Shown here piece by piece: positions 58,143-63,774 of a stretch of 63,774 nucleotides of DNA (position 1 is the stretch's first letter; every line of letters begins with the position of its first letter). This DNA is from an uncultured SAR86 cluster bacterium. GTDB taxonomy: Bacteria > Pseudomonadota > Gammaproteobacteria > Magnimaribacterales > AG-339-G14. Under the pieces are notes generated by a model. That model made no database searches, was not told where the DNA came from, and saw nothing but the letters and a program-made list of their open reading frames with translations. The stretch is from assembly GCA_902589965.1 (NCBI GenBank), contig CACIUX010000006.1, positions 1-63,774 on the forward strand. Direction: 5' to 3'. The translations under genes were made by a program, and so were the position numbers.

Positions 58143-58877
58143 CTATTTAAGCTCCGCAAATGGTTTGTTAGAAAATGTAAAACTTTCACCGCATCCACAC
58201 TCATTTTCAACATTAGGATTTTTAAAGACTAAATTATGATTTACGCCTTCTTGAATATAATCCAATTCTGTACCTTTGAGGAAAATCAAGCTTGTGTCTT
58301 TGATATAAACATCAACACCGGAGAAATTTCCATGGTAATCATTAGGATCTTCATCTTTTACGTAATCTAGATTGTAAGCATATCCTGAGCATCCAGAGTC
58401 TTTTAAAGATATTCTAATTCCATTTGAGCCTGGATTGGACTTCATCATCTCAACAAGATGACTTACTGCAGAGCTAGAGACACTGAAATCATCCTTGCTG
58501 AGAGACTTTTTATCTTCTGCCCCTAAATTATTCTTATTTGGATGTAATTCTGAAACCATATTGATAGTATATCTTGGAAACTGGATTGTAATATCATTAG
58601 AGAGATTTCTTAATTGACAACTAAGTCTAGACCTTTGCTCAAGACCCCATGCCTTATCAAGCATATCTTCCTCGTCATCGGATGATTCTTCCAAAGTATC
58701 GAACCCTTCAGTAACAATTACGTGACAGGTAGTGCATGCACATGACATCTCACAAGCATGTTCTACTAAAATATTATTATCGAGTAAATTTTCGCAGACT
58801 GACTTAGAGGGTTCAGCTTCTACAACTGCTCCTTCTGGACATATCTCTGCATGTGGCAAAATAGTTATCTTGGGCAT
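58143..58877 (-). CDS. Fused [2Fe-2S] ferredoxin and IscA
   Basis: One 244-aa frame holds two proteins that are normally separate. Residues 1-110 are Isc-type ferredoxin: cluster ligands Cys42, Cys48, Cys51 and Cys87, at the same numbers as in E. coli Fdx, plus DMLDKAWGLE. After a polar linker (111-128), residues 129-244 are IscA: the three conserved cysteines are Cys163 (GCSG), Cys227 and Cys229 (CGCGESF). The fusion should keep electron donor and cluster carrier together during [4Fe-4S] assembly. It shares one base with iscU. There is no stop or frame change between the parts. The fusion order is reversed relative to the usual iscA ... fdx gene order. Confidence 0.95.
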   Translation of the reverse strand: MPKITILPHAEICPEGAVVEAEPSKSVCENLLDNNILVEHACEMSCACTTCHVIVTEGFDTLEESSDDEEDMLDKAWGLEQRSRLSCQLRNLSNDITIQFPRYTINMVSELHPNKNNLGAEDKKSLSKDDFSVSSSAVSHLVEMMKSNPGSNGIRISLKDSGCSGYAYNLDYVKDEDPNDYHGNFSGVDVYIKDTSLIFLKGTELDYIQEGVNHNLVFKNPNVENECGCGESFTFSNKPFAELK

Positions 58878-59299
58878 TAGTCATTATTTCTTAAACTCTT
58901 GAAGTCATCTATTGCGCGATGAATTGCCTCTTCTGCAAGCACACTACAGTGAATTTTAATTGCGGGTAATTCTAAAATATCGACAATTTCTTGGTTAGAA
59001 ATAGCTTGAGCCTCCTCCAAAGTTTTGCCCTTAAGCATGTCAATTAATTGTCCGCTTGATGCAATAGCTGAACCACAACCGTATGTTTTGAATCTTGCAT
59101 CTACTATTCTATTTTTGCCATCAATGTTCTGGCATTTTATTTGAAGTTTCATTACATCTCCGCAGGCTGGAGCACCAACGATTCCGGTACCTACTCGATG
59201 ATAATCTTCATCGCCAGGCTTCCATCTACCGACACTGGCCTTTTCAGGATTATTTAAAGTTTCTTCGAACTTATCTACTACTTTTTGTGAATATGCCAT
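58877..59299 (-). CDS. iscU: Fe-S cluster scaffold IscU
   Basis: Builds [2Fe-2S] clusters from IscS-derived sulfur. Ligand cysteines are Cys46 (GAPACGD), Cys75 (YGCGS) and Cys118 (KIHCS), with Asp48 beside the first. The HscA-recognition motif, LPPVK in E. coli, reads LPAIK (111-115). Length 140 aa, slightly longer than usual owing to a few residues before the first Cys. It lies 18 bp after iscS and is followed by the fused fdx-iscA gene. Confidence 0.96.
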   Translation of the reverse strand: MAYSQKVVDKFEETLNNPEKASVGRWKPGDEDYHRVGTGIVGAPACGDVMKLQIKCQNIDGKNRIVDARFKTYGCGSAIASSGQLIDMLKGKTLEEAQAISNQEIVDILELPAIKIHCSVLAEEAIHRAIDDFKSLRNND

Positions 59300-59317: not shown

Positions 59318-60523
59318 TTAAGCCCACTCTATTTTATCTAAATCTACTCCATCTTGATACATTTCCCAAAGAGGAGAGATTTCTCTCAACCTTTCCACTG
59401 AGGACTTAACAAGCAAGGCAGTTTCCCTTACATCTTTTTCAGTAGTATATCTACCAAAAGAAAATCTAATAGAGCTATGTGCAAGCTCATCTTTCCTGCC
59501 AAGCGCTCTAAGAACATACGAAGGTTCTAAGCTCGCTGAAGTACATGCAGACCCAGAGGAAACTGCAATTGATTTAAGAGCCATTATTAGAGATTCTCCC
59601 TCAACGAAATTAAAAGATATATTCAATATGCCAGGGAATTTGTTTTTTGAATCACCATTGACATAGATTTCCTCAATATCTTTAACTTCTTCCCAAAAAA
59701 TTCTTTTAAGATTTTCTAACTTTCTTAAGTCATCATCCATTTGTTGGTGAGCTATTCTTGCTGCCTCCCCTAAACCTACTATCTGGTGTGTAGCCAAAGT
59801 ACCAGATCTAAAACCTCTCTCGTGACCGCCTCCATGAAATAATGGTTCTAATCTAACTCTGGGTTTTCTCCTAACAAATAATGCACCTACGCCCTTGGGG
59901 CCATAAAATTTATGAGCTGAAATTGATAAAAGATCAATTTTATTTGAAGACATATTAATGGCGATTTTCCCAATACTTTGGGCTGCATCAACATGGAAGA
60001 TTATTCCTTTGCTTCTAGTTAATTCACCTATTGCATCAATGTCAGTAATAGTTCCTAATTCATTATTCATATGCATGAGTGATACTAAAATTGTTTTATC
60101 AGTGACTGCTTCTGCAACTTGTTCAATAGAGATCTCTCCTGAAGAGTTTGGCTCCAAATATGTAACTTCAAAGCCTTCATCTTCAAGTTGTCTGAAGGGA
60201 TCAAGCACTGCTTTATGCTCTATTTTCGAAGTGACGAGATGATTACCTTTATTCTTATAAAATCTTGCTGCGCCCTTAATTGCTAAGTTATCAGACTCAG
60301 TTGCACCTGAAGTCCAAATGATTTCTCTAGGATCACAACCAATTAAAGTTGCAAGGTTATTTCTTGCCTCTTCAACTGCCTCATCAGCTTTCCAACCGAA
60401 GGAGTGAGATCTGGAAGCAGGATTTCCAAAATTCCCATCGAAGGACATAAAGTCTGTCATCTTTTTAACGACGCCTTCTTCTACAGGAGTAGTTGATGCA
60501 TAATCTAAATAAATTTGTTTCAA
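59318..60523 (-). CDS. iscS: Cysteine desulfurase IscS
   Basis: PLP enzyme that supplies sulfur for Fe-S clusters and tRNA thiolation. The PLP lysine is Lys205 ([11 protein letters not shown]) and the persulfide Cys327 is in [10 protein letters not shown], each one position from E. coli numbering. Length 401 aa. The start is TTG at 60523, preceded by a weak AGGT ribosome site; [12 protein letters not shown] directly follows, as in homologues. It is first in the isc operon here, since iscR is not upstream; instead a 228-bp gap with repeated AGGTACA boxes separates it from a divergent oxidoreductase. Confidence 0.96.
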
Positions 60524-60549: not shown

Positions 60550-60578
60550 ATTCTATTCTCATTCAGGTACAGAGTAAA
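60550..60578 (-). promoter_or_regulatory. Predicted promoter of the isc operon
   Basis: On the minus strand TTTACT (60573-60578) and TAGAAT (60550-60555) are 17 bp apart, matching sigma70 at four and five positions. The spacer contains one AGGTACA box (60565-60571), and another lies just upstream (60585-60591). Transcription would begin about 20 nt before the iscS TTG. A protein bound to the spacer box would block or reshape this promoter. Confidence 0.5.
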
Positions 60579-60746
60579 GAAAAAAGGTACATTAATAGAC
60601 TACTTTATAACTTTTAATTATAAAGAAACTGGAAAATAGACCAAATACCCCTATTACAAGCCTCTTAGGAGATCTTTTCTATCTTGATATGTACCTTTGA
60701 AAAAAAATAAGGTACACTCTGATCAAATTAAATGATTATAGGTACA
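60565..60746. repeat. Five AGGTACA boxes in the iscS/oxidoreductase divergent region
   Basis: Identical 7-mers at 60565-60571, 60585-60591, 60710-60716 and 60740-60746 (plus strand) and 60690-60696 (inverted). Start-to-start spacings are 20, 105, 20 and 30 bp, all near whole turns of the helix. The third and fourth form a perfect 8-bp inverted repeat (TGTACCTT / AAGGTACA, 11-nt spacer). Flanks are A/T-rich. The first lies within the predicted isc promoter; the last is 5 bp before the oxidoreductase ATG. For this base composition about 0.02 copies would be expected in 180 bp. A shared DNA-binding protein is the simplest explanation. Confidence 0.8.
60603..60625. repeat. Central palindrome in the same intergenic region
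   Basis: CTTTATAA (60603-60610) and TTATAAAG (60618-60625) form a perfect 8-bp inverted repeat with a 7-bp spacer. It sits between the two groups of AGGTACA boxes. It could be a second regulator site or a transcript hairpin. The rest of the gap, about 60626-60689, shows nothing I can name. Confidence 0.45.
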
Positions 60747-60751
60747 GAATC

Positions 60752-62818
60752 ATGAGCAAAAACAAGTATCTTTATAAAAGGCATAATACTTGGTGGGTAA
60801 AACTTTCAGTTCCAAAAACTCTAAGAGATAAGTTAGGTTATGATCTGAGGCAAACCACAGGAACCTCAGATCTAGACGAGGCAATTTTAAAGAGAGATCA
60901 AATTGTCCAAGAGTTTAGAGACGTTATCAATACTGAAAAAAATCTTTTGGAAAATTCTAAATCATCAAAGGATATTTCTGGTAGTTCGGATGTTCCCATA
61001 AGCGATTACATGCCCAAAACAGATATATCTGATCCTCAGTATTTTCATAAAGTTGTTGACTGTCAGTGGGCCTGCCCTGCTCATACCAATGTTCCTGAAT
61101 ATATTAGACTGATTGCTCAAAAGAAATATACCGATGCATACATGCTTAATTGGAAATCAAATGTTTTTCCTGGAATTCTTGGAAGAACTTGTGACAGACC
61201 ATGCGAGCCAGCATGCAGAAGATCTAGAACACATGAAGAACCGGTAGCAATTTGCAGATTAAAAAGAGTTGCTGCCGATAATAAAGAAGACTTTGATAGT
61301 CTTGTTCCTGAAATTCCGTCTGAAAAAAATGGAAAAAATATTGCTTTGATTGGTGGTGGCCCTGCTTCTTTGACTGTAGCTAGAGATCTATTGCCTTTAG
61401 GTTATGAGGTAACAGTATTTGAAAAGGATCCTAAGCCTGGCGGGTTAATGAGAACCAATATTCCATCTTTTAGATTACCTGAAGAAGTTTTAGACGAAGA
61501 AGTTTATAGAGTCATCAAAATGGGTGCGAAGTTTGTTAACAATACTGAAATCAAAAGCATGAAGTCTCTTGTAGATGATGAAAAATTTGATGCTGTTTTT
61601 GTAGGAACAGGAGCACCTAAAGGGAAAAATTTAAATATTCCAGGAAGAGATGAAGCATCAGAAAATATTCATATCGGTATTGATTGGCTCACTAGTATTG
61701 CTTTTGAACACATATCTTCCATTGGAAAAAAAGTAGTTGTTATTGGTGGCGGAAATACTGCAATGGATTGCTGTAGAACAGCCATTAGATTAGGGGCGGA
61801 AGATGTGAAAGTGACCGTAAGAAGTCCTTTCGAAGAAATGAAAGCTTCAGATTGGGAGATTGAAGAAGCTATAGATGAAGGAATACCTATTCTTGAAAAT
61901 ACATCTCCCAAAGAATTTGTTGTAGATGACAATGGAAAACTTAAGGGAGTTAAGTTCGAGAAAGTGGCACCACAATATTCAGATGACGGAAAAAGAAAGA
62001 TGGTTCCTACTGGGGAGGAAATAGTCATTGAGTGCGATGACGTTTTATTAGCAATTGGTCAAGATAATGCCTTTGATTGGATTGAAAGAGATATTGGAAT
62101 GGAGTTTGGTGAATGGGATATGCCTATTGTTGATAAAACTACAATGCAATCAACTTTACCAAAGGTCTTTTTTGGTGGTGATGCAGCATGGGGACCTGAA
62201 AATATTATTTGGGCAGTAGCTCATGGTCATCAAGCTGCTATATCGATTGATAACTATTGTAACGGAGTTGATCTTCTTGATAGACCTGATCCTCTAACAA
62301 ATCTTGTGAGTCAGAAAATGGGTGTTCATGAATGGGCATATGATAATGATATCTCTCAAGAGGATAGAAACATTGTTCCTCATGCTGATCATTCCGAAGC
62401 ACTGAAAAGTTTAAAAGTTGAAGTTGAGCTAGGGTACGACGAACAACTTGCACTAGATGAGGCTCAAAGATGCCTTAATTGCGATATGCAGACAGTGTTT
62501 AAAGAAGATCTCTGCATTGAGTGCGATGCTTGTGTTGATATCTGCCCTACCGATTGTATTAACTTTACTGATAACGGTACTGAAGAGTTTGTAAGAGGAA
62601 GTCTTAGAATTCCAGCGGTAAATTTAGATCAGAGTTTATATGTTTCAGACAAACTCAAAACTGGAAGAGTTATGGTTAAGGACGAAGATGTTTGTGTTCA
62701 CTGTGGGCTTTGTGCAGAAAGATGTCCTACTGGAGCATGGGATATTCAAAAGTTTTCTTACACTGAAGCTCAAACGTTGAATTCGAAAGATAAGAAAAAA
62801 TACAAGGAAGTTGCATAG
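60752..62818 (+). CDS. Integrase-head / GltD-like FAD, Fe-S oxidoreductase fusion
   Basis: A 688-aa protein. Residues 1-65 (YLYKRHNTWWVKLSVPKTLR, then LRQTTGTSDLDEAILKRDQI) look like the N-terminal arm-binding segment of tyrosine recombinases (DUF6538-like); no catalytic recombinase domain follows. From about residue 84 it is a glutamate-synthase-beta-type oxidoreductase: N-terminal cluster cysteines 104, 108, 147, 151, 155; FAD motif GGGPAS at 201-206; NADPH motif GGGNTAM at 332-338; and two C-terminal 4Fe-4S sets, Cys588/591/594/598 and Cys648/651/654/658. It probably passes electrons between NADPH and the 2-oxoacid oxidoreductase encoded next (the stop shares one base with that GTG). The ATG at 60752 is the only good start; a late TTG (60947) would remove the head but has no clear ribosome site. 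Confidence 0.85.
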   Translation: MSKNKYLYKRHNTWWVKLSVPKTLRDKLGYDLRQTTGTSDLDEAILKRDQIVQEFRDVINTEKNLLENSKSSKDISGSSDVPISDYMPKTDISDPQYFHKVVDCQWACPAHTNVPEYIRLIAQKKYTDAYMLNWKSNVFPGILGRTCDRPCEPACRRSRTHEEPVAICRLKRVAADNKEDFDSLVPEIPSEKNGKNIALIGGGPASLTVARDLLPLGYEVTVFEKDPKPGGLMRTNIPSFRLPEEVLDEEVYRVIKMGAKFVNNTEIKSMKSLVDDEKFDAVFVGTGAPKGKNLNIPGRDEASENIHIGIDWLTSIAFEHISSIGKKVVVIGGGNTAMDCCRTAIRLGAEDVKVTVRSPFEEMKASDWEIEEAIDEGIPILENTSPKEFVVDDNGKLKGVKFEKVAPQYSDDGKRKMVPTGEEIVIECDDVLLAIGQDNAFDWIERDIGMEFGEWDMPIVDKTTMQSTLPKVFFGGDAAWGPENIIWAVAHGHQAAISIDNYCNGVDLLDRPDPLTNLVSQKMGVHEWAYDNDISQEDRNIVPHADHSEALKSLKVEVELGYDEQLALDEAQRCLNCDMQTVFKEDLCIECDACVDICPTDCINFTDNGTEEFVRGSLRIPAVNLDQSLYVSDKLKTGRVMVKDEDVCVHCGLCAERCPTGAWDIQKFSYTEAQTLNSKDKKKYKEVA

Positions 62819-63774
62819 TGGAAAAACTTCAAACTTTTGATTCCTTAGTTTCTAAGAATGACTTTGTAATTAAATTTGCAAATGTGAATGGCTCTGGTTC
62901 AGCAAGTGCTAACCAAATGTTTGCTAAAGCAGTTTTTAGAATGGGCATTCCTGTAAGTCCAAAAAATATTTTTCCCTCAAACATTCAGGGCTTACCAACT
63001 TGGTTTGAAATTAGAATTAATAAAAATGGGTATCTTGGGAGTAAAGGAAGTGTTGATCTCTCAGTTGCAATGAATCCTCAAAGCTACAATCAAGATGTTG
63101 AAGAGCTCAACTCCGGCGGATATCTTTTATATGATTCTTCTTGGAAAAGAAATTTCTACAGAGATGATATTAACGTGATAGAAATTCCCCTCACTAGCCT
63201 CTGTGTTGAGTCTTTTACGAATGCAAAGCAAAGAGCCCTTTTTAAAAATATTGCCTATGTAGGTGCCTTGTCTGTTCTTCTAGATATGGAGTATGAAATT
63301 TTTGAAGAACTTATATCTGAGCAATTTGCATCGAAAAAGAACTTAATTGAGCCAAATCTAAAAGCCCTTAATATTGGAAGGGACTATGTTTTAAATAATT
63401 TGCCTTATCCAATTGGTTTAACGCTGGAAAGAATGGACAAGAATGATGGAAAAATTCTTATTAGTGGCAATGAAGCAGCGGGATTGGGAGCTGTTTATGG
63501 AGGAGCAACTATCTGCGCTTGGTACCCTATAACACCTTCTACCTCATTAGCAGAAGGTTTTGAAAAATATGCCAAAAAATTTAGAGTTGATGAAAAAACT
63601 GGAAAAAACCTTTATGCGAGCGTTCAAGCTGAGGATGAATTGTCTGCTATTGGTATGGCTATCGGGGCTAACTGGAATGGAGCTAGATCATTCACTGCGA
63701 CCAGCGGCCCTGGAATTTCGTTGATGAGTGAATTTCTTGGTCTGGCATATTTTGCTGAAGTTCCTGTCGTAGTG
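62818..63774 (+). CDS. 2-oxoacid:acceptor oxidoreductase, fused gamma-alpha subunit (partial)
   Basis: The first 319 residues of a ferredoxin-type 2-oxoacid oxidoreductase, cut by the window edge. Residues 1 to about 190 are the gamma domain (FANVNGSGSASANQMFAKAV); from about 217 the alpha domain begins with SGNEAAGLGAVYGGATICAWYPITPSTS, typical of KorA. Such enzymes interconvert 2-oxoacids such as 2-oxoglutarate and acyl-CoA with ferredoxin. A TPP-binding beta subunit should follow outside the window. The start is GTG, overlapping the TAG of the oxidoreductase, so both are translated together. Substrate specificity is not visible. Confidence 0.88.
   Translation, partial: MEKLQTFDSLVSKNDFVIKFANVNGSGSASANQMFAKAVFRMGIPVSPKNIFPSNIQGLPTWFEIRINKNGYLGSKGSVDLSVAMNPQSYNQDVEELNSGGYLLYDSSWKRNFYRDDINVIEIPLTSLCVESFTNAKQRALFKNIAYVGALSVLLDMEYEIFEELISEQFASKKNLIEPNLKALNIGRDYVLNNLPYPIGLTLERMDKNDGKILISGNEAAGLGAVYGGATICAWYPITPSTSLAEGFEKYAKKFRVDEKTGKNLYASVQAEDELSAIGMAIGANWNGARSFTATSGPGISLMSEFLGLAYFAEVPVVV

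Follow-up and report, generated by a model that had tools for sequence, protein, structure and literature searches.

Trigger enzymes such as PutA, NadR and BirA carry a fused DNA-binding domain, and isc promoters are usually controlled in trans by IscR, a regulator of the Rrf2 family. In negatively autoregulated tRNA-associated integrases an N-terminal domain binds arm-type sites that overlap the promoter of the integrase itself, which creates a feedback: IntS of KplE1 binds sites overlapping its own promoter and thereby represses its own gene, and self-repression has been predicted for most tRNA-associated integrases (PMC2951348). Enzymes with fused DNA-binding domains and integrase autoregulation are thus already known. 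In the literature that we searched, no paper names DUF6538, none describes fusions of the kind reported here, and a domesticated integrase arm-binding domain recurring with conserved boxes on unrelated enzymes was not found.

The locus described here lies in a stretch of 63,774 nucleotides from an uncultured SAR86 cluster bacterium (the window) and can be set beside each of these systems. Like the trigger enzymes, its fusion protein combines an enzyme and a probable regulator of its own operon in one polypeptide, but the domain is of integrase type, and domain and operator recur on several unrelated enzymes. Its likeness to the tRNA-associated integrases lies in the putative binding of arm-type sites by an N-terminal domain at its own promoter; unlike them, it has a metabolic enzyme in place of the catalytic part, and no tRNA was found near the fusions in six loci tested (L083, L118, L088, L122, L138 and L148). 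Like IscR it is positioned at an isc promoter, and in SAR86 family f2 iscR itself lies between iscS and the fusion gene; in contrast, the window's family is devoid of the Rrf2 domain that defines IscR (0 of 37 genomes). To our knowledge, the boxes at the locus resemble no known IscR sites.

Results

The fusion gene (60752–62818, plus strand) encodes 688 amino acids and was recognized by profile matches as DUF6538 joined to a GltD/NfnB-like NAD(P)-binding, 4Fe-4S oxidoreductase, the C-terminal part of which includes Fer4 domains. DUF6538, an integrase-type and putatively DNA-binding domain, spans residues 6–60 (60767–60931, plus strand) and matches Pfam PF20172 at an E value of 1e-7, its 32 bits passing the curated cut-off of 27. 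No Phage_integrase domain was detected in the protein at E values up to 1, among the best 25 of 34 families. Downstream follows a korA-like gene for the alpha subunit of a 2-oxoacid:ferredoxin oxidoreductase (62818–63774, plus strand; assigned by profile), which is truncated by the window end and whose full homologue at locus L049 matches TIGR03710. Divergent from the fusion gene is iscS (59318–60523, minus strand; identified by profile and by comparison across lineages), followed in the isc operon by what we take to be iscU (58877–59299, minus strand), named from its sequence and its position after iscS, and by a ferredoxin-IscA type fusion with Fer2 and Fe-S_biosyn profiles (58143–58877, minus strand). 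A sequence scan for iscS promoters gave a single, weak sigma70-like candidate (TTTACT-17-TAGAAT; 60550–60578, minus strand), which is not significant relative to the 1.5 candidates expected in shuffled sequence.

Five exact copies of AGGTACA span the divergent region shared by iscS and the fusion gene. Box 1 (60565–60571, plus strand) falls within the spacer of the promoter candidate, and box 2 (60585–60591, plus strand) follows at 20 bp, a distance kept in all g1 fusions of the GltD/NfnB-like type. Box 3 is inverted (60690–60696, minus strand; TGTACCT on the plus strand), box 4 lies at 60710–60716 (plus strand), and box 5 (60740–60746, plus strand) overlaps the expected Shine-Dalgarno position, the ATG of the fusion gene beginning 5 bp further on. 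Box 1 is conserved within the genus. The arrangement given by the initial annotation, four copies in direct and one in inverted orientation from 60565 to 60746 with start spacings of 20, 105, 20 and 30 bp, was confirmed throughout, and a genome-wide scan supported its view of the cluster as exceptional. The window contains 11 copies of AGGTACA compared with 3.0 (s.d. 1.7) in shuffled sequence, a count reached by none of 100 shuffles. Genome-wide, 87 copies occur in 1.12 Mb, so that about 0.014 would be expected per 182 bp, and a second group of five is absent. What did not hold was the description of the boxes as helically phased: a 10.5-bp period is absent from the spacings between boxes of the same orientation across 50 loci (R = 0.13, p = 0.43). 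Within the genus the last spacing drifts from 30 to 31 and 32 bp. A phasing signal among inverted pairs was discarded as the product of overlapping palindromes 6 bp apart.

Other close groups of AGGTACA in the genome are limited to pairs on contigs C2 and C4, two of which read as lying within dnaJ- and secY-like genes, and a triple on contig C15. The triple, situated within an HD-domain gene, was considered as a second target and rejected as a chance occurrence, being unconserved in relatives. In the closed genome of a relative (G009), sites less than 200 bp apart occur solely at its own fusion gene, where there are three; likewise, a scan of the 4.7-Mb genome G208 with the 9-mer AAGGTACAG gave a sole close group, located at the fusion gene. 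A wider regulon was therefore not retained, as no further conserved cluster was found in the window's genome (G000), G009 or G208.

Within SAR86, DUF6538 was found in 43 of the 61 genomes searched. All genomes of the window's family have it except three, which are 60–76% complete and are also without a true iscS match; genomes of family f2 that lack isc lack the domain too. Most SAR86 genomes with DUF6538 carry it on the GltD-type enzyme, while in others, where the GltD/Kor operon beside isc is replaced, it is found on IscS itself. Five loci from several SAR86 lineages (L050:2973–6157, L051, L052, L053 and L056) encode an acetolactate-synthase-type TPP enzyme and an aldehyde dehydrogenase in place of the GltD/KorAB operon; this pair may form a 2-oxoglutarate decarboxylase/succinic semialdehyde dehydrogenase bypass that replaces 2-oxoglutarate:ferredoxin oxidoreductase. 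In family f3 the domain occurs on the Rieske subunit before cytochrome b or on small, C-terminally hydrophobic proteins, and domain and box have both diverged (box ATGRGTACA). For instance, a DUF6538-Rieske gene heads a petABC-like operon in G050 (L058:5273–6142) and has GGGTACA boxes upstream. Proteins of about 147 amino acids that begin with a DUF6538-like domain and have a hydrophobic stretch at the C-terminus are encoded at L059:5559–6002, L060:4944–5384 and L061:4627–5067, and the two upstream regions of such small-protein genes that were read, in G038 and G044, contain repeated ATGRGTACA boxes. Overall, boxes were present upstream in 30 of 30 SAR86 DUF6538 loci read. In family f2 (L010:1250–1400, L004 and L008) a pair of boxes between iscR and the fusion gene overlaps in head-to-head orientation, forming AGGTACATGTACC-type palindromes that hint at dimeric binding at that site.

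The IscS tree requires three changes between the two arrangements, the GltD-type fusion and the IscS fusion, and the domain tree does not reject a single clade of IscS fusions (AU p = 0.30). These changes may mean either that fusion took place more than once or that the locus was transferred. The IscS of the window's clade (59318–60523 in the window) is placed far from that encoded at L050 and L051 in two members of its own genus, which suggests that the whole locus has moved between SAR86 lineages.

Beyond SAR86, we searched one genome each of 84,980 species with a pattern drawn from the domain alone (WWVK[VL][ASR]VP) and obtained 80 loci in total. Those outside SAR86 belong mostly to Woeseiaceae and other Gammaproteobacteria, and there the domain is fused to KorA of korAB or to NfnA of an nfnA-nfnB-korA operon, the KorA and NfnA fusions scoring 35.6 and 39.9 against PF20172. 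Wherever a locus was mapped, the gene that carries the domain is the first of its operon. Three loci (L096, L108 and L111) come from records titled Ilumatobacter, Flavobacteriaceae and Cytophagales; they are typical of gammaproteobacterial/SAR86 fusions, and the contigs are probably mis-binned. Removal of redundancy by k-mer content left 50 upstream regions of 300 bp, in which AGGTACA is the top enriched 7-mer, with 108 sites distributed over all 50 regions compared with 1.5 expected from dinucleotide shuffles. This count is not circular because the loci were picked by protein sequence and not by the box. The enrichment holds for GltD/NfnB, IscS, KorA and NfnA fusions alike and extends to GC-rich genomes. 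As the fusion partners differ, and in f3 also include the Rieske subunit and a small membrane protein, the box is linked to the domain and not to the enzyme.

Homologous genes without the domain served as controls. Where isc of SAR86 families f3 and f4 lacks the domain, its promoter contains no GGTACA within 200 bp upstream, a single copy at about −340 being present in 2 of 14 of these upstream regions. Domain-less KorA homologues with 66–70% identity are without boxes; among the 14 domain-less KorA homologues of the control set, 2 have a single copy, which is near background. A domain-less GltD-type oxidoreductase was also sought inside SAR86, yielding only a distant paralogue of about 34% identity that is probably the true GltD.

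DUF6538 was detected in 115 of 397 Pseudomonadota genomes sampled, mostly as the N-terminus of integrases; 7 of 12 long proteins scanned also pass the Phage_integrase cut-off, and a tRNA is located just upstream in 18 of 18 integrase loci scanned. Profiles of the fusion domains and of the integrase N-termini align over 65 columns (HHalign, 97.5%, E = 5.4e-12), and by this comparison the two are homologous. In 34 upstream regions of DUF6538 integrases GTACA is the commonest 5-mer, and near-identical 8-mers are repeated with a 12–13 bp lag in 21 of 34 compared with 0.8 expected, shuffled sequences peaking at a count of 3 for any lag. The paired (G)GTACA-like repeats just before the integrase start, e.g., CTGGTACACCAAGCGGGTACAC and GGTGGTACAAAGAGGTGGTACAC, look like arm-type sites. 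Unlike these pairs, the fusion loci have several boxes in both orientations, with spacings of 6–195 bp and without a 12–13 bp peak. The likeness to integrase arm sites noted in the initial annotation can thus be tied to the fusion protein through the homology of its domain, the repeats of the integrases and the boxes of the fusion loci. Of the two outcomes that the annotation had named as counting against it, neither occurred: the boxes are conserved in all 50 non-redundant loci with the domain, and the genome contains no other group of five. A stand-alone DUF6538 protein of 81 amino acids (G179, L166:1483–1728) lies beside a tRNA-Leu gene and has two GGGTACA boxes spaced by 13 bp; it may be a remnant or act as a free regulator.

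In a confident AlphaFold model of DUF6538 (pLDDT 89), two strands are followed by a helix, a third strand and a long helix, an arrangement with which the attP-arm domain of a P4-like integrase (3rmp) and AP2/ERF domains are compatible, although similarity is weak. Structure comparison gave Z = 3.8 for 3rmp (22% identity over 51 residues) and Z = 3.7 for 1gcc. Since 3rmp and several AP2 domains match only at Z of about 3.8, the fold evidence is supportive but weak; Foldseek of the model against the PDB returned nothing significant, and a sequence search against solved structures gave no meaningful match.

Discussion

We consider it highly probable that the boxes are an operator bound by the domesticated integrase arm-binding domain of the fusion protein, which would exert autogenous control, most likely repression. 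DUF6538 would be the arm-site-binding domain of a tyrosine integrase, captured together, or co-evolved, with its cognate GGTACA sites and placed in frame at the first gene of an operon. Expressed from a promoter among the boxes, the fused enzyme would then bind them and most likely repress its own operon, as tRNA-linked integrases do via their arm sites. The simplest reading is that the fusions retained the autogenous loop and dropped recombination; the lack of an integrase catalytic domain in the fusion makes it probable that the boxes serve as an operator and do not form a functional recombination site. Expression of the divergent isc operon is probably also set by the fusion in the window's family, where IscR is missing. 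That the domain stayed on IscS when the Kor operon was replaced suggests selection on its role at isc. DNA binding, the choice of repression over activation and any coupling to the state of the enzyme or of Fe-S are inferred. IscS and KorA themselves are not known to hold a regulatory Fe-S cluster, which makes a common Fe-S sensing logic doubtful.

The strongest competitor, which we nevertheless regard as unlikely, is a variant of the preferred reading that differs in sign, in which the fusion protein would bind the boxes to activate transcription or to position the enzyme on DNA instead of repressing its own gene. Many loci also have boxes 100–200 bp upstream, a possible activator position, but nearly all have one within 60 bp of the start codon, and the integrase precedents are negative (PMC2951348). 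We give considerably less credence to the idea that the boxes are the operator of another regulator of Fe-S or 2-oxoacid metabolism, encoded away from the locus, with DUF6538 present on the regulated genes by coincidence. The boxes do lie near Fe-S related genes, and control in trans is the norm for isc promoters. However, they track the domain across unrelated partners and lineages and are absent from domain-less isc and kor genes, the window's family lacks Rrf2/IscR, and DUF6538 integrases have similar repeats; moreover, since the sites cluster nowhere else in the genomes scanned, a trans regulator would have this one target only. A role as Shine-Dalgarno or RNA elements working in the mRNA appears very improbable: box 5 and, in about one third of the loci, similar boxes coincide with the ribosome-binding position or come close to it, but 40 of 137 sites have the inverted orientation, and many sites are more than 100 bp upstream. 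Least credible of all are functionless relics of an old attachment site, for despite their resemblance to the arm-type sites of tRNA-linked integrases the boxes persist as exact 7-mers in every non-redundant upstream region while the remaining sequence has diverged, and there is no integrase domain in the window's fusion and no tRNA near the fusion loci tested.

The preferred reading, autogenous control by the fused domain, can be extended to a transferable cassette of arm sites, promoter, start codon and DNA-binding domain, derived from integrative elements, that turned enzymes into autogenous regulators and in SAR86 took over the control of Fe-S assembly from IscR. We hold this extension in even balance. 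The recipient enzymes would be Kor, Nfn, GltD-type, IscS and Rieske proteins, the products of first genes of unrelated operons. With an enzyme and a domain judged by homology to bind DNA in one chain, and a conserved candidate operator at its own promoter, the fusion would qualify as a trigger enzyme.

DUF6538, a Pfam domain of unknown function, thereby gains a likely function and a probable recognition sequence. The fusions point to a route by which parts of mobile elements may turn into regulators of core metabolism, and they suggest, in a form open to testing, how some of the most abundant bacteria in the ocean would control iron-sulphur assembly without IscR.
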